Assembly: GCF_016653115.1 (NCBI RefSeq)
Contig: NZ_NHRX01000063.1
Span: 1-64,000 of the forward strand
Length of the DNA: 64,000 nucleotides
Direction of reading: 5' to 3'
From: Rhodocyclus purpureus
Lineage (GTDB): Bacteria > Pseudomonadota > Gammaproteobacteria > Burkholderiales > Rhodocyclaceae
Shown: positions 19,289 through 25,946 of the stretch, piece by piece
Layout of the letters: every line of letters begins with the position of its first letter
Numbering within the stretch: position 1 is the first letter of the stretch
Notes under the pieces: model-generated
Told to the model about the DNA's origin: nothing
Seen by the model: the letters and a program-made list of their open reading frames with translations, nothing else
The model's database searches: none
Program-made: the position numbers and the translations under genes

Positions 19289-20092
19289 TCAGCCTTGGCG
19301 TGCGCCTTGCTGTGCGGACAGCCAGTTCGCCAGGCGCACGTAGTCGGCGATCGCCAGTTCCTCGGCGCGCCGCGTCGGATCGATACCGAGTTCGGCGAAG
19401 CCCGCGTCGGCGACGATTCCCTTCAGCGTGTTGCGCAGCATCTTGCGCCGCTGCGCGAAGGCTGCGGCGACGACCTGGGCGAAGACCGCCTCGTCGGCCG
19501 CCAGCAAGTCGGCAGCGGGGCGCGGGATCAGGCGGACGACCGCGGAATGCACCTTCGGCGGCGGGTCGAAGGCCTCGGGCGGCGCGTCGAGCAGCCAGTC
19601 GATGACGAAGCGGTAGCCGAGCATCACCGTCAGGCGGCCGTAATCGTTGCTGCCCGGTTCGGCGACCATGCGCTCGACGACTTCACGCTGCAGCATGAAG
19701 TGCATGTCGTAGACGAGCTCGGCGAAGCCGGCGAGGTGGAAGAGCAGCGGTGTCGAGATGTTGTAGGGCAGGTTGCCGACGACCTTGAGCCGCGAGCCGG
19801 GGGGACGCGGCAGCGCGGCGAAGTCGAATTCGAGCGCGTCGCCCTCGTGCACCGTCAGGCGCTCGGCCGGGAAACGACGGCGCAGGCGCGCGGCGAGGTC
19901 GCGGTCGATCTCGACCACGTGGAGGTGGTTCACGCGCTCGGCGAGCGGCTCGGTCAGTGCGGCCAGGCCCGGACCGATCTCGACCACGCAGTCGTCGCGG
20001 CGCGGCGCGACGGCGTTGACGATGTCGCCGATGATGCCGCGGTCCACCAGGAAGTTCTGGCCGAAGCGCTTGCGCGCGCGGTGTTCGCTCAT
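19289..20092 (-). CDS. rsmA: 16S rRNA dimethyladenosine transferase
   Basis: RsmA/KsgA dimethylates two adjacent adenosines in helix 45 of 16S rRNA (A1518 and A1519 in E. coli) late in 30S assembly. It has 267 residues. The N-terminus [18 protein letters not shown]-binding [14 protein letters not shown] and catalytic NLPYNIS motifs are all present. It is last in the minus-strand series lptD-surA-pdxA-rsmA, a conserved proteobacterial order. Confidence 0.97.
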
Positions 20093-20128: not shown

Positions 20129-21169
20129 TCAAGCTCGATCCGCCGCCGCCAGCGCCGCCGAGCGGCTGACCATCAGCGCCGCCTGTTCGACGGCGACGAA
20201 GAGGCTACCCGGGTCGGCACTACCCTTGCCGGCGAGGTCGAGCGCGGTGCCGTGGTCCACCGAGGTGCGGATCACCGGCAGCCCCAGGGTGACATTGATG
20301 CCGGCGCCGAAAGTCGCGTACTTCAAGGCGGTCAGCCCCTGGTCGTGGTACATCGCCAGCACGCAGTCGCCGCGCGCGAGCTGCGGCGGCGTGAACATGG
20401 TGTCGGCGGGAAGCGGGCCGATCAGCCTGAAGCCTTCCTCCCTCAGGGCGGCGAGTGTCGGCGCGATCACCTCGATTTCCTCGCGACCGAGCGAGCCGCC
20501 CTCGCCGGCGTGCGGATTAAGCCCGGCGACGAGGATGCGCGGCTCGGCGATGCCGAACTTGCGGCGCATGTCGGCGGCGATGATGCGGATCGTCTCGGCG
20601 AGCGAGTCGCGCGTGATCGCATCGGGCACCTCGCGCAGCGGCAGGTGCGTCGTCGCCAGCGCGACGCGCAGATCGCCGCCGGCGAGCATCATCACCACGC
20701 GGGGGACGCCGCAGGCGGCGGCCAGGTACTCCGTGTGGCCGGTGAAGGGGACGCCGGCGTCGTTGATGATCGACTTCTGCACCGGCGCCGTGACCATCCC
20801 GGCGAATTCGGGCGGCGTCCCGTCGGCGCCTGCGCGGCAGCCGGCCAACGCCCGATCGAGCAGCGCGAGCACGTAAGGCGCGTTGGCGACATCGAGCACA
20901 CCCGCCTGCGCCGGCACGGCGAGCGGCAGCGAAAGCACGTCGAGCACGCCCGCAAGCGGGGCCGCTTGCGGATCCCAGTCGCGCAGGCGCGGCGCAAAGC
21001 CCGTCTGCGCGGCACGCGCGGCCAAGAGCTCGCGGTCAGCGAGGACGACCAGGCGCACGCCGTGCGTGGCCGCCCAGTCGCGCTCGGCCAGGCGCAGGCA
21101 GAGCTCGGGACCGATACCGGCCGGCTCGCCCGAGGTGACCGCAAGCACCGGCAGTGCAGACGCGTTCAT
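20129..21169 (-). CDS. pdxA: 4-hydroxythreonine-4-phosphate dehydrogenase
   Basis: PdxA oxidises 4-phosphohydroxy-L-threonine in the DXP-dependent pyridoxal phosphate pathway. It has 346 residues. Family motifs include TSGEPAGIGPELCLRL at the N-terminus, PVQKSIINDAGVPFTGHTEYLA in the middle, a metal-binding histidine in LNPHAGEGG, and MYHDQGLTALKYATFGAGIN, followed by RTSVDHGTALDLAG. It begins four bases downstream of the surA stop. Confidence 0.97.
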   Translation of the reverse strand: MNASALPVLAVTSGEPAGIGPELCLRLAERDWAATHGVRLVVLADRELLAARAAQTGFAPRLRDWDPQAAPLAGVLDVLSLPLAVPAQAGVLDVANAPYVLALLDRALAGCRAGADGTPPEFAGMVTAPVQKSIINDAGVPFTGHTEYLAAACGVPRVVMMLAGGDLRVALATTHLPLREVPDAITRDSLAETIRIIAADMRRKFGIAEPRILVAGLNPHAGEGGSLGREEIEVIAPTLAALREEGFRLIGPLPADTMFTPPQLARGDCVLAMYHDQGLTALKYATFGAGINVTLGLPVIRTSVDHGTALDLAGKGSADPGSLFVAVEQAALMVSRSAALAAADRA

Positions 21170-21172
21170 CTG

Positions 21173-22489
21173 CTAGCGCTCCTCGAGACGCAGGTCGACG
21201 TAGGCGCGGTCGCGCGCCTGGCGCAGCCAGTCCTGGTAGGCCTCGTCGAACTTGCGTTCGCGCAGGGCCTGGCGCGCGGCCATGCGCTGGCGTTCGCTGG
21301 ACACGTCCTGCACGCGCCGCTCCAGCACCTCGATCAGGTGGAAGCCGAACGGCGACTGCACCGGCTGGCTGATCTCGCCCGGCTGCAGCGCGTTCATCGC
21401 GCGCTCGAACTCGGGAACCGTGTCGCCGGGGTAGATCCAGCCGAGGTCGCCGCCCTTCGGTGCCGAACCGTCCTGCGAGTAGAGGCGTGCCAGTTCGGCG
21501 AAGTTGCCGCCGTTCGCCAGGCGCTCGCGCAGCCCTTCGAGGCGATGGCGCGCCTCGGACTCGGAGACGACCTCGTTGACCTTGACCAGGATGTGGCGGA
21601 CGCGCGTCTGCTGCACGGCCGGCACCACCGCACCGCCGCGCTTGGCGATCAGCTTGATGAGGTGAAAGCCGTTCGCGCTGCGCAGCAGGGGCGAAGTCTC
21701 GCCAGGGTTCAGGCTCGCCGCCGACGCCGAGAAGATCGACGGCATGCGGTCGAGCGGGCGCCAGCCGAGGTCGCCGCCATTGAGCCCGTCGGGCGCATCG
21801 GAATAGGCGGCGGCGAGCTGGGCGAAGTCCTCGCCGCGAGCAAGCCGCGCCTGCACCTGCTCGGCCCGCTCCCTGAGCTTCTGGATCTGCTCCGGACTCG
21901 CCGCTTCCGGGGCGCGGAAGAGGATGTGCGCCAGCCTGAATTCCTCGCTCCTGCCCCCCTTGTCGGCTTCGGCGGCAAGATAGTTGTCGATCTCGCCTTC
22001 GGAGACGGCGATCTTGTTCTCGACCTCGCGTTCGCGCACGCGGGCGATGGTCATCTCCTCGCGGATCTCCTCGCGGAAACGCGACAAGGGAATTCCGTCC
22101 TTTTCCAGGAGCGCGGCAAACTGCGCGAGAGACATCTGGTTGTTGGCGGCGATCCGCTGCAGCGCCATCTCGAGCTGCGCATCGTCGATGCGCAGGCCGG
22201 TGTCACGCGCGTACTGCAACTGGATGCGGTCCATCACCAGGCGCTCGAGCATCTGCCGCTGCAGGACGTCCTGCGGTGGCAGCGGCGTGCCCTGGCGCTT
22301 CAAGCGGCCGAGCGCGGAATCGAGGCTGCTGCGCAGCTCGTTGAGCGTGATCACCTCGTCGTTGACGACGGCGACGATGCGGTCGGCGAGCACCGGTTCG
22401 CTGCGCGGCGTGGCAGCGGCGGCGGCGCCGGCGAGCGCCAGCAAGCCGACGGCGAGGAAAAGGGAGCGGATGCAGCGCGTGCAGTTCAT
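21173..22489 (-). CDS. surA: Periplasmic peptidyl-prolyl isomerase/chaperone SurA
   Basis: SurA escorts unfolded outer-membrane proteins to the BAM complex; LptD is a major client. It has 438 residues from the ATG at 22489: a signal peptide (SLFLAVGLLALAGAAAA), the N-terminal chaperone domain starting at LADRIVAVVNDEVIT, and two parvulin domains (RLAHILFRAPE... and RVRHILVKVNE...). I chose this start because GAGGAAG lies 6-7 bases upstream and the signal peptide follows at once. It overlaps nothing but lies 10 bases after the lptD stop, consistent with co-transcription. Confidence 0.95.
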   Translation of the reverse strand: MNCTRCIRSLFLAVGLLALAGAAAAATPRSEPVLADRIVAVVNDEVITLNELRSSLDSALGRLKRQGTPLPPQDVLQRQMLERLVMDRIQLQYARDTGLRIDDAQLEMALQRIAANNQMSLAQFAALLEKDGIPLSRFREEIREEMTIARVREREVENKIAVSEGEIDNYLAAEADKGGRSEEFRLAHILFRAPEAASPEQIQKLRERAEQVQARLARGEDFAQLAAAYSDAPDGLNGGDLGWRPLDRMPSIFSASAASLNPGETSPLLRSANGFHLIKLIAKRGGAVVPAVQQTRVRHILVKVNEVVSESEARHRLEGLRERLANGGNFAELARLYSQDGSAPKGGDLGWIYPGDTVPEFERAMNALQPGEISQPVQSPFGFHLIEVLERRVQDVSSERQRMAARQALRERKFDEAYQDWLRQARDRAYVDLRLEER

Positions 22490-22499
22490 GCAGTCTTCC

Positions 22500-25400
22500 T
22501 CATTGACCAAGGGCGGGATCGGAAAGTGTCTGGATATCGTTGATGCGGCCGTAGCCCTGGATACTGCGCCTGAGCAGTTGGAGCGGATTGGAGCCGACGC
22601 GCGCGAAATCGTTGAGCTCCAGTTGCACGAAGAACGTCGAGGATGCGACGCCCGTCGCCGTCGCCAGACGCTGGCCGACCATGCGGACGACCCAGCAACC
22701 GCCGTCGTACTCGAAGCCGAGGATGTTCTCGATCGGCTGCTGGTCCTTCAGCGAGTAGTTGAGGCGACCGACGGCGTACCAGCCGCCGTGGATCGGCCAC
22801 TGTCCGGAAAAGTCGACCTGCTTGATCTGGTCGCGGTTGAAGCGATACGCGGCGTTGAAGACCTTGCCCGGTGCCGGCAGGTAGCGCGCACCGAGCGAGG
22901 TGCGCTGGGTGCGCGCCTGATCGACGTTGTACTGGACAGCCGCGTCGGCGTAGAGCTTCGGGGCGACCTCGCCGGAGAAGGCGGCAAGCAGGTCGGACTT
23001 GTTCCACTCGCGCTGCGCCTGCGTCGGTAACATCACCTGCTGGTCGCTGAAGTAGAAGCGCTGGCCGAGCATCGCGCGCATCAGTTCGCGCCCGCTCTCG
23101 GGGGCGATCAGGCGAGAGGTCACCGCAGCGGTCAGCTGGTTGGCGTCGTTGAAGCGATCCTGGCCGGTGAACTGGTTCTCGGCGAAGATCTGCGCGAAGT
23201 TGAAGTCGGCCAGACCGCTGTCGAAGACCGGGATGCGGCTCTGGTCGCGGTAGGGGACGTTCAGGTAGTAGAGGCGCGGTTCGAGCGTCTGCGTGAAGTT
23301 TTGACCCGCCCACTCCAACGGCCGCTCGAAAGTCATCCCGGCGTCGACCGAGAAGACCGGCAGGGTGCGGTTGAAGCTGTCGGGTGCGTCCGCCAGCGCG
23401 CCGGCGTCCTGGCGGGTCATCGTCCAGTTGGTCGCATGCACGCCGAGCTTCGGCGTCACGTACCAGCCGGGATTGACGATCGGCAGCGCCAGCTGCGGAT
23501 AGACGACCAGGCGCCGCGCCTCGGCCTTGGCCGGGTCGGCATTCACGAAGGCCGAATACTGGCCGAACAGCGAGCTGTCGGTGCCGCCGAGCCAATACGG
23601 CTTGCGCGCGTTGAAGTTGATCTGCGGCAAGAGGCTGTACGGCTTCGTCACCGACACCGCGGGGTCGGGCTGCAGCGTCTGGTACGACTGCAGGTTGAGG
23701 TTCGTCGTCCACCAGCCGCTCGGCGACCAGTTGAGCATCCCCTGGCGCAGCAACTGGGTCTGCGCGGTGCTGCCGATCCGGCTCGACAGGTCCGTGTAGT
23801 ACTTGTCGTCGGAAACCGCGTTGAAATTGAGTTGCCCGGACAGCCCCGGTGCCAAGGTATGGCGATGCAGCAGCGACAGCCCCCAGCGGTTCTCCTCGGC
23901 GAGCAGGTCGTTGGGCAGCAGTTCCAGCCGCGCCTGTCCCGAATAGTTGTAATCGAGGTAGCGGAAGTCGGTATTGAGCTGGAGGCCGCGCTTGGACAGG
24001 ATGCGCGGCGCGATGGTCGCGTCCATGTTCGGCGCGATGTTCCAGTAATACGGCAGGTTCAGCGAGAAGCCGCTGGTGGTGCTCGAGGCGAAGGTCGGCG
24101 CGAGGAAGCCCGACTTGCGCTGGTTGTTGAGCGAAAAAGTCAGCCACGGCGAATAGAGGATCGGCACGCCCTTGAAGTAGACCGTGCCGTTGCGCCCCTC
24201 GCCGACCTCGCGGTCGTAGTCGAGCCTGAGCTCGTCCGCTTGCGCGTACCAGTCGTCGTTGCCCGGCTTGCAGGTGCTGTAGGTGCCTTCGCTGATGCGC
24301 ACCTGGTTTTCGCCTTCGAAGTCGATCCGCTCGGCCTGGCCGTGCCCCTCGACTGCGGTGCGCGGCGCCAACGTCGAGAACGAGGACACCGTGGACACAC
24401 CAACGCTGGCGTAAGGCGATCCCGAAGGCATCACGTAGGAGCTGCTGTCGGTTCCCGTCACCGGGGCTGCGGCCCCATTCGGCGTCGTGGGCAAGGTGCC
24501 GCCCACCGTCAGCGGGTCCTGCGCACCGAACGCCGAAACGCTCTGCCCGAAGGCCGCCACCGCCTTCGGCTGCCGCATCAGCGTGTAGCTCGGCTGTTCG
24601 AAGAAGCCGACCTGATCCTGCAGACGCAGGCGCAGATAGGGGCCGGAGACGACGTCGCCGCCCTGCTCGATGCGCACCTTGCCGCTGGCAGTGACTTCGT
24701 CTTCAACCGGCGAATAGGTGAGGCGCTCGGCGGTGAGTACCGTGCCGATCCTGCGCAGTTCGGCATCGCCCTCGGCGACCATCTCGGTTTCGGTATCGCC
24801 GTGGATGCGATCGGCGGTCAGGAAAACCGGGAGGGGCTGATCGCTCTTGACCGGTTCGCCCATCTGCTTGGTCAGGCGCAGGGACAAGGGCGGCAGGCCG
24901 TCGTCCACGCGCTCTTCCTCGGTATCCGCCTCGGCTGGCGACGGTTCGCCGCTACTCTCCGGTACGGCCAAGGGTGCCGCCGGAGATTCAGCCGTGCCGG
25001 CCGGGAAGGCCGTGGCGGGCACGCTCCCTGCCGCGTAGGGGGCAGCAGCCGGCGTTCGGTAAGGGCCGGCGACGATCTGCGGACGCTGTTCCTGCGCCGC
25101 CGCAGGAGCGCTTGCCGGCGTCCCGATCGCCTCGCCCGCCTTGCCGAACTCCCACTTCGCCCAGAAGAAGAAGACGTTGCCGGCTCCCGCACCGCCGGGA
25201 ACGAAGGCCGTTTCGAGACTCAGGTTGCGATAGCCGATCGAAGCGATCGGCAGGATGCCGGGAAAGGGCTTGTAGTCGAAGATGTCGGCACGCATCATCA
25301 GGAAGGCCGTGTAGCCGAGACCGAGCTTCACCTCATCGACCGGATTCCAGAAGGTCTTCCACCCGTAGCCGGCCATCCACTGTGGCTTGAAGTGCGAATC

Positions 25401-25946
25401 GTGGAAGCCCATCGCGTAGACGCCTTCCCAGTTGCCCTTCTCGTTATAGCGACCGAAGCCGGCCCCCAGGCCGGGCGGATTTTCCTGATAGCCGGCGATC
25501 TGTTCCTTGGTATACGCGCTGCGCAGGTGGTAGGTGTGGAACGGCAGGTAGAGCTCGAGCGTGCCGAGATCCCAGGTCTGCCTGACCGGCTGCCACAAGC
25601 GCTGGGCCCACGACGGTGGCACAGGGGCGGCGACGGCAGACGGCTCGGCGGTGGCCGCGCCACGGGCCGCCTTGTCAGTGCTGCGGGAGGCCGGGCGCGT
25701 GCCCGACGAACGCCCCGTGCCGCTGCCCGCGTCGAGCGCGCGCCCGGCGGTGCCGGTGGCGGGGGGGCTGGCGGGCCTCGGTAGCGAAGCCGTCGGAGGC
25801 ACCGGCAGCCCGAGCAGCGCCGGGTGCACGCGCAGGGGACTCAGCCCCTGCGCGCCGGCGGCGAGCGGCAAGGCGCCGAGCATGGCGCCCGAGACGAACA
25901 CCGCGAGAGGCTTCACGCGAAAGGGAAGACCGATGCGGAAATTCAT
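22500..25946 (-). CDS. lptD: PagP-LptD fusion: lipid A palmitoyltransferase domain joined to LPS-assembly outer-membrane protein
   Basis: A 1148-residue protein against about 750-800 usual for LptD. From the ATG at 25946 (AGGA upstream) it has a signal peptide (FVSGAMLGALPLAAGAQG), then residues 112-267 that match PagP: LPFHTYHLRSAY, YNEKGNWEGVYAMGFHDSHF, MAGYGWKTFWNPV, LPIASIGYRNLSLE and the last strand NVFFFWAKWEF. His140 and Asp183-Ser184 align with the PagP catalytic His33, Asp76, Ser77. A Pro/Ala-rich linker (268-350) leads to the LptD periplasmic jellyroll (LPVFLTADRIHG onward, 372) and barrel (LEPRLYYLNVPYRDQS; C-terminal GGCWVVR). No stop, frameshift or second signal peptide separates them. 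A Ser/Thr-rich insert sits at about 464-530. Confidence 0.93.
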   Translation of the reverse strand: MNFRIGLPFRVKPLAVFVSGAMLGALPLAAGAQGLSPLRVHPALLGLPVPPTASLPRPASPPATGTAGRALDAGSGTGRSSGTRPASRSTDKAARGAATAEPSAVAAPVPPSWAQRLWQPVRQTWDLGTLELYLPFHTYHLRSAYTKEQIAGYQENPPGLGAGFGRYNEKGNWEGVYAMGFHDSHFKPQWMAGYGWKTFWNPVDEVKLGLGYTAFLMMRADIFDYKPFPGILPIASIGYRNLSLETAFVPGGAGAGNVFFFWAKWEFGKAGEAIGTPASAPAAAQEQRPQIVAGPYRTPAAAPYAAGSVPATAFPAGTAESPAAPLAVPESSGEPSPAEADTEEERVDDGLPPLSLRLTKQMGEPVKSDQPLPVFLTADRIHGDTETEMVAEGDAELRRIGTVLTAERLTYSPVEDEVTASGKVRIEQGGDVVSGPYLRLRLQDQVGFFEQPSYTLMRQPKAVAAFGQSVSAFGAQDPLTVGGTLPTTPNGAAAPVTGTDSSSYVMPSGSPYASVGVSTVSSFSTLAPRTAVEGHGQAERIDFEGENQVRISEGTYSTCKPGNDDWYAQADELRLDYDREVGEGRNGTVYFKGVPILYSPWLTFSLNNQRKSGFLAPTFASSTTSGFSLNLPYYWNIAPNMDATIAPRILSKRGLQLNTDFRYLDYNYSGQARLELLPNDLLAEENRWGLSLLHRHTLAPGLSGQLNFNAVSDDKYYTDLSSRIGSTAQTQLLRQGMLNWSPSGWWTTNLNLQSYQTLQPDPAVSVTKPYSLLPQINFNARKPYWLGGTDSSLFGQYSAFVNADPAKAEARRLVVYPQLALPIVNPGWYVTPKLGVHATNWTMTRQDAGALADAPDSFNRTLPVFSVDAGMTFERPLEWAGQNFTQTLEPRLYYLNVPYRDQSRIPVFDSGLADFNFAQIFAENQFTGQDRFNDANQLTAAVTSRLIAPESGRELMRAMLGQRFYFSDQQVMLPTQAQREWNKSDLLAAFSGEVAPKLYADAAVQYNVDQARTQRTSLGARYLPAPGKVFNAAYRFNRDQIKQVDFSGQWPIHGGWYAVGRLNYSLKDQQPIENILGFEYDGGCWVVRMVGQRLATATGVASSTFFVQLELNDFARVGSNPLQLLRRSIQGYGRINDIQTLSDPALGQ

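Follow-up and report, generated by a model that had tools for sequence, protein, structure and literature searches.

The PagP protein of E. coli (CrcA; PF07017, NF008271) is a free outer membrane enzyme that carries its own signal peptide. PagP is described as moving palmitate from mislocalised phospholipid in the outer leaflet to lipid A (PMC5874903, PMC9403492), and it is also reported to be able to acylate phosphatidylglycerol (PMC9403492). The LptD protein of E. coli (PF04453) combines a jellyroll and a barrel and inserts LPS. The termini of PagP and the N-terminus of LptD all face the periplasm, so a PagP domain could be tethered to LptD without any crossing of the membrane.

Here, we describe a gene of Rhodocyclus purpureus in which these two proteins are joined. 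The fusion is a natural protein, encoded in one frame, and both of its domains are complete. Both domains belong to known families, and the new part is the architecture. Among the matches listed in a literature search that covers subscription journals thinly, no PagP-LptD fusion appeared in the titles or in the opening parts of the abstracts.

Results

PagP and LptD are encoded in a single open frame

The window (the whole stretch of DNA analysed, 64,000 nucleotides) contains one open frame at 22500-25946 on the minus strand, with an ATG at 25946, 1148 codons plus a stop and no internal stops. Its parts and its downstream neighbours are the following.

22500..25946, minus strand: PagP-LptD fusion gene, a 1148-codon open frame with Pfam PagP and LptD matches within a single protein
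25845..25946, minus strand: signal peptide, about residues 1-34 (lone hydrophobic peak; cleavage site placed by eye)
25803..25835, minus strand: LptD leader motif LRVHPALLGLP, residues 38-48 (LRVDPALLGLP in unfused LptD of the family)
25146..25613, minus strand: PagP domain, residues 112-267, with His140, Asp183 and Ser184 (PF07017, NF008271, PDB 3gp6/1mm4, AF2 model)
24831..25145, minus strand: Pro/Ala-rich linker, residues 268-372 (composition, hydropathy and start codon scan; no second signal peptide)
24567..24830, minus strand: N-terminal part of the LptD periplasmic jellyroll, about residues 373-460 (phmmer to 7omm at 376-447; alignable in fused and unfused LptD)
22503..24356, minus strand: remaining LptD jellyroll and barrel, residues 531-1148, with Cys559 and Cys1084 (PF04453 at 685-1056, PF19838 at 589-770)
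21173..22510, minus strand: surA, the downstream neighbour (SurA_N by Pfam)
20129-21169: pdxA, after surA (PdxA by Pfam)
19289-20092: ksgA, after pdxA (RrnaAD by Pfam)

A hydropathy scan of the protein in 15-residue windows yielded a single passing peak, in windows starting at residues 13-16. Together with the open frame, this upholds the initial annotation, made from the DNA sequence, which had described an uninterrupted frame with a single signal peptide. We rejected the production of a separate LptD from an internal start: residues 260-420 include six in-frame start codons, and by eye and by hydropathy none of the six is followed by a signal peptide. The leader ahead of PagP is ~78 residues long and the linker behind it ~105 residues, and the spacing from the PagP match to the jellyroll match varies between 51 and 134 residues across 12 fused proteins.

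The fused PagP domain retains its catalytic residues

The initial annotation had placed a PagP-like domain at residues 112-267 and had named a profile search as a check on the similarity. The match persists in Pfam, where PF07017 scores 172.5 bits (cut-off 24) at residues 121-264 and spans positions 2-144 of its 144-position profile; it exceeds the cut-off of the NCBIfam PagP equivalog (NF008271 at 107-267, 185.6 against 155), and residues 113-267 match solved PagP chains in phmmer (E ~3e-33). Chance similarity is rejected by the profile scores of both PagP and LptD.

As had been proposed, His140, Asp183 and Ser184 align with His33, Asp76 and Ser77 of E. coli PagP, which we take to be its catalytic residues. 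The counterparts of these three residues and of Arg114 are conserved in 14/14 fused PagP domains (their distribution is given below). Eight pairwise comparisons gave dN/dS values of 0.03-0.26 for the PagP part and 0.07-0.23 for the LptD barrel, with synonymous change high in some pairs; by these ratios, the fused PagP is under purifying selection.

Gly88 of E. coli PagP is presumably the acyl ruler for C16 chains. The same position holds Gly in the window protein and in 9/14 fused domains, and the other five have Gln (L034), Thr (L041), Ala (L036) or Ser (L096 and L098). Because the ruler residue varies, it is not certain that every fused PagP uses palmitate and, judged by this residue, some of them may use other acyl chain lengths.

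An AF2 model of residues 103-276 reached a pLDDT of 75 in the best of five predictions (70, 57, 34 and 33 in the others). The best model has eight strands and two helices, the first N-terminal and the second short, and its three best PDB matches are 3gp6, 1thq and 1mm4. The fused domain is thus predicted to be like E. coli PagP (39% identity to 3gp6 in the structural alignment; TM-score 0.68/0.76), with the same 8-stranded barrel and N-terminal helix and with the three catalytic counterparts kept. Unlike the free enzyme, it is embedded in the LptD leader, and its last strand is therefore internal to the chain. Prediction of the full-length fusion, from an alignment of 5 rows, gave a pLDDT of 27, too low to place the two barrels, and did not yield the 8-stranded barrel beside the large one that the initial annotation had expected.

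The LptD part is complete and is the only copy found in the genome

The LptD part matches all 384 positions of its Pfam profile (PF04453 at residues 685-1056, 343.1 bits, cut-off 22.4), in line with the annotated complete LptD. The best solved LptD chain is 7omm (residues 542-1133, E 1e-115 in phmmer). Two NCBIfam LptD equivalogs also matched, with scores of 373.5 and 372.7 that fall short of the curated cut-offs of 683 and 944, respectively, over model positions 145-730 of 783 and 145-775 of 799. The fusion protein has only two cysteines, Cys559 and Cys1084, which align with Cys173 and Cys725 of E. coli LptD; we take this to be the cysteine pair that links the jellyroll and the barrel. Cys31 and Cys724 of the E. 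coli protein have no counterpart in the fusion, and likewise none in the aligned unfused relatives.

The LptD part resembles E. coli LptD in its jellyroll and barrel, in the two cysteine counterparts, in adjoining surA and in being the only copy found in its genome, and differs from it in having an enzyme with a barrel of its own at its N-terminal end. The source genome (3.6 Mb, 69 contigs) contains no second PagP or LptD match. The search for a separate pagP that the initial annotation had suggested thus leaves the fusion as the holder of both the sole PagP match and the sole LptD match found. LptE is present elsewhere in the genome (one PF04390 match, 69.9 bits against 23).

The order lptD-surA-pdxA-ksgA (names from Pfam) is constant in all fused loci whose downstream side is covered (10/10). 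At the unfused loci L043-L055, a conserved neighbourhood places the separate pagP no more than ~2 kb from dus in 10/13 cases, some kilobases from lptD. Where the stretch covers it, amgK-murU-pepP is found between the separate pagP and lptD; these names are labels that we apply to Pfam matches to APH, nucleotidyltransferase and M24 peptidase, respectively.

PagP lies inside the LptD leader

Unfused LptDs of the family start with a signal peptide and a LRVDPALLGLPP-type motif, which are followed by a Pro/Ala-rich stretch and the jellyroll. A pattern search found the motif in 22/30 unfused loci, in one to three copies. The fused proteins have it once or twice, ahead of PagP; in the six with two copies, both come before PagP. 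Because the leader motif precedes PagP in fused proteins and the jellyroll in unfused ones, PagP is located inside the LptD leader, and the earlier guess of an insertion of PagP behind the LptD leader and ahead of the jellyroll agrees with the motif order of the unfused relatives. The unfused LptDs with long Pro/Ala leaders have the same leader motif and are without the PagP domain. No PagP remnant was detected in the 16/30 unfused leaders that were searched without filters (best E 1.6). Within the leader comparison, the leader of L067 was covered in part.

The motif itself (window 25803-25835) is conserved, and often duplicated, in LptDs of the family. By eye, it looks like CMLGVP, the sequence at Cys31 in the LptD of E. 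coli. Simple amino acid repeats also occur in LptD leaders (L037 and L084), namely QAT in G105 and PT and PA in G042.

The fusion occurs in 14 genomes of three genera

The architecture search across relatives that the initial annotation had called for recovered the PagP-LptD fusion in 14 genomes: 3/3 of the window's genus, Rhodocyclus, 10/28 of genus g53 (which includes Ca. Propionivibrio aalborgensis) and 1/1 of a third genus. Carriers include Rhodocyclus tenuis 2761 (NZ_JACIGE010000001.1), and a Rhodocyclaceae MAG record also has the architecture. In a family sample of 297 genomes, PagP matches were found in 44, and in 8 of those the frame with the match was of LptD size and encoded LptD as well; 30 of the 45 family PagP loci were examined, and the other 15, in frames of 135-404 aa, were counted as unfused by size. 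In genus g53, PagP is present in 10/28 genomes, always fused, and the other 18 are PagP-less. In none of the 14 fused genomes was PagP matched a second time outside the fusion.

In G1048, a g53 genome, the fusion gene is divided between two overlapping contig ends. For Ca. P. aalborgensis (L034), where the PagP row stops at the end of a contig, we assigned the fused label manually; L035, which overlaps L034 (371/379 bases and 115/115 residues alike), continues into LptD.

The fusion was not found beyond the family; in the order, class and phylum samples, which overlap partly and have PagP in 58/399, 15/369 and 25/398 genomes, respectively, the only carrier is the window's own genome. Its frame is also the sole LptD-sized PagP frame in these samples, and the others are at most 539 aa. 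No plasmid record covered 80% of the fusion protein. The initial annotation had held that separate pagP and lptD genes at this locus in related genomes would speak against the fusion. Such separate genes do exist in some relatives (e.g. G031), whereas the fusion is conserved in Rhodocyclus and in parts of two further genera. Because of that conservation, the separate genes point to gain and loss rather than to error.

A related arrangement occurs in family f20 of the same order, where PagP is followed by a second barrel in one frame in 3/3 proteins tested (L100:1332-2948, L101:1163-2620 and L102:2063-3244). The second domain of these proteins is a small OMP_b-brl barrel (PF13505, 40-47 bits), in contrast to the LptD of the fusion. 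In f20, the PagP frames of seven genomes are 389-539 aa long.

Phylogeny fits one fusion followed by losses

All 14 fused LptDs are located in one 27-row clade (support 100/100) of a tree rooted on 16 other members of the family. On this tree, the fused/unfused label requires five changes, and the count is equal when E. coli is included. The LptD trees include 10/18 PagP-less g53 genomes and a partial row for G1064, and they omit G082, whose match is split. This pattern fits one fusion and four losses (in G031, in the pair G245/G125 and in two groups of g53), with repeated gain of the fusion, instead of one gain and losses, as a conceivable alternative. If the favoured four losses took place, the fusion is dispensable.

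In the PagP tree, which has rows from 24/36 unfused family genomes, G389 and E. coli and omits three divergent f20 rows, the 14 fused PagPs form one side of a branch (support 82/95; 88% of 200 bootstrap trees). Support for the unity of the fused PagP clade is therefore moderate. The branching order of the genera is the same for fused PagP and for LptD, and the separate pagP genes of G031 and G245/G125 are on other branches than the fused PagP. An origin of the fused PagP from the separate gene found near dus, which in G031 is ~11 kb away from lptD, is not supported, because this gene and the fused clade do not nest together.

Discussion

On balance, and by a modest degree, we favour a reading in which the fused domain is an active PagP-family lipid A acyltransferase, located in a disordered LptD leader and tethered to the LPS insertion pore. 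The proposal draws on sequence comparison and structural modelling. The chain would be exported once, and the Bam machine would fold both the 8-stranded barrel and the large barrel from it. With the ends of both parts in the periplasm, the leader and the linker would tether the enzyme to the translocon. The PagP domain would then take an acyl chain from an outer-leaflet phospholipid near the insertion site and transfer it to LPS as it leaves the lateral gate of LptD. Acylation would be constitutive and coupled to LPS delivery, in contrast to the stress response of a free enzyme. Of the functions put forward by the initial annotation, palmitoylation at the insertion pore or clearance of phospholipid, either is plausible.

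The older chemistry of Rhodocyclus tenuis lipid A is said to include ester-bound C16:0; our literature search found no published lipid A chemistry for this species. The fatty acids of Rhodocyclus species are listed as 33-36% C16:0 (PMC8954225), so acyl donors appear to be at hand.

Several other explanations would account for the same gene. The translated chain could be cut in the Pro/Ala-rich linker to release separate PagP and LptD proteins, and PagP would then merely be constitutive and equal in number to LptD. The linker and the leader look disordered and vary in length by species, as protease-sensitive linkers do, but an open frame maintained in 14 genomes does not need cleavage, and operon linkage would have sufficed; we consider this outcome unlikely. 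With the chain intact, PagP could mainly clear or sense stray phospholipid at the LptD gate, or acylate another lipid such as phosphatidylglycerol, rather than serve LPS acylation. The enzyme's reported removal of a chain from outer-leaflet phospholipid and its capacity to acylate phosphatidylglycerol (PMC9403492) are consistent with such a role, as is the variable ruler residue. However, the PagP family is named for its lipid A acceptor and LPS is what arrives at LptD, and we judge a primary phospholipid role to be less likely again than cleavage.

Loss of activity would leave the PagP barrel as a scaffold or a plug beside LptD, which is very improbable when all of its catalytic residues are kept in 14/14 domains and its dN/dS is far below 1. 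We give practically no weight to an assembly or frameshift artefact that joined two genes: it is rejected because 14 independent genomes from three genera, including Rhodocyclus tenuis 2761 and the Rhodocyclaceae MAG, carry the same architecture.

If the fused PagP is active, a lipid A modifying enzyme is placed at the LPS exit, and it becomes testable whether LPS is remodelled during its insertion and where phospholipid meets LPS. The fusion is also a natural substrate for studying how Bam folds two barrels per chain, the first of which has an internal last strand. More tentatively, and with somewhat less conviction than we attach to the tethered enzyme itself, the single chain may work as one outer membrane machine with two barrels, LptD inserting LPS and the tethered PagP acylating it as it emerges, so that remodelling is built into delivery; together with the f20 proteins, it would suggest that PagP is a portable module, a barrel that can go in front of other outer membrane barrels. 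In Rhodocyclus and some of its relatives, the LPS-inserting protein bears an apparently intact LPS-acylating enzyme in the same chain.
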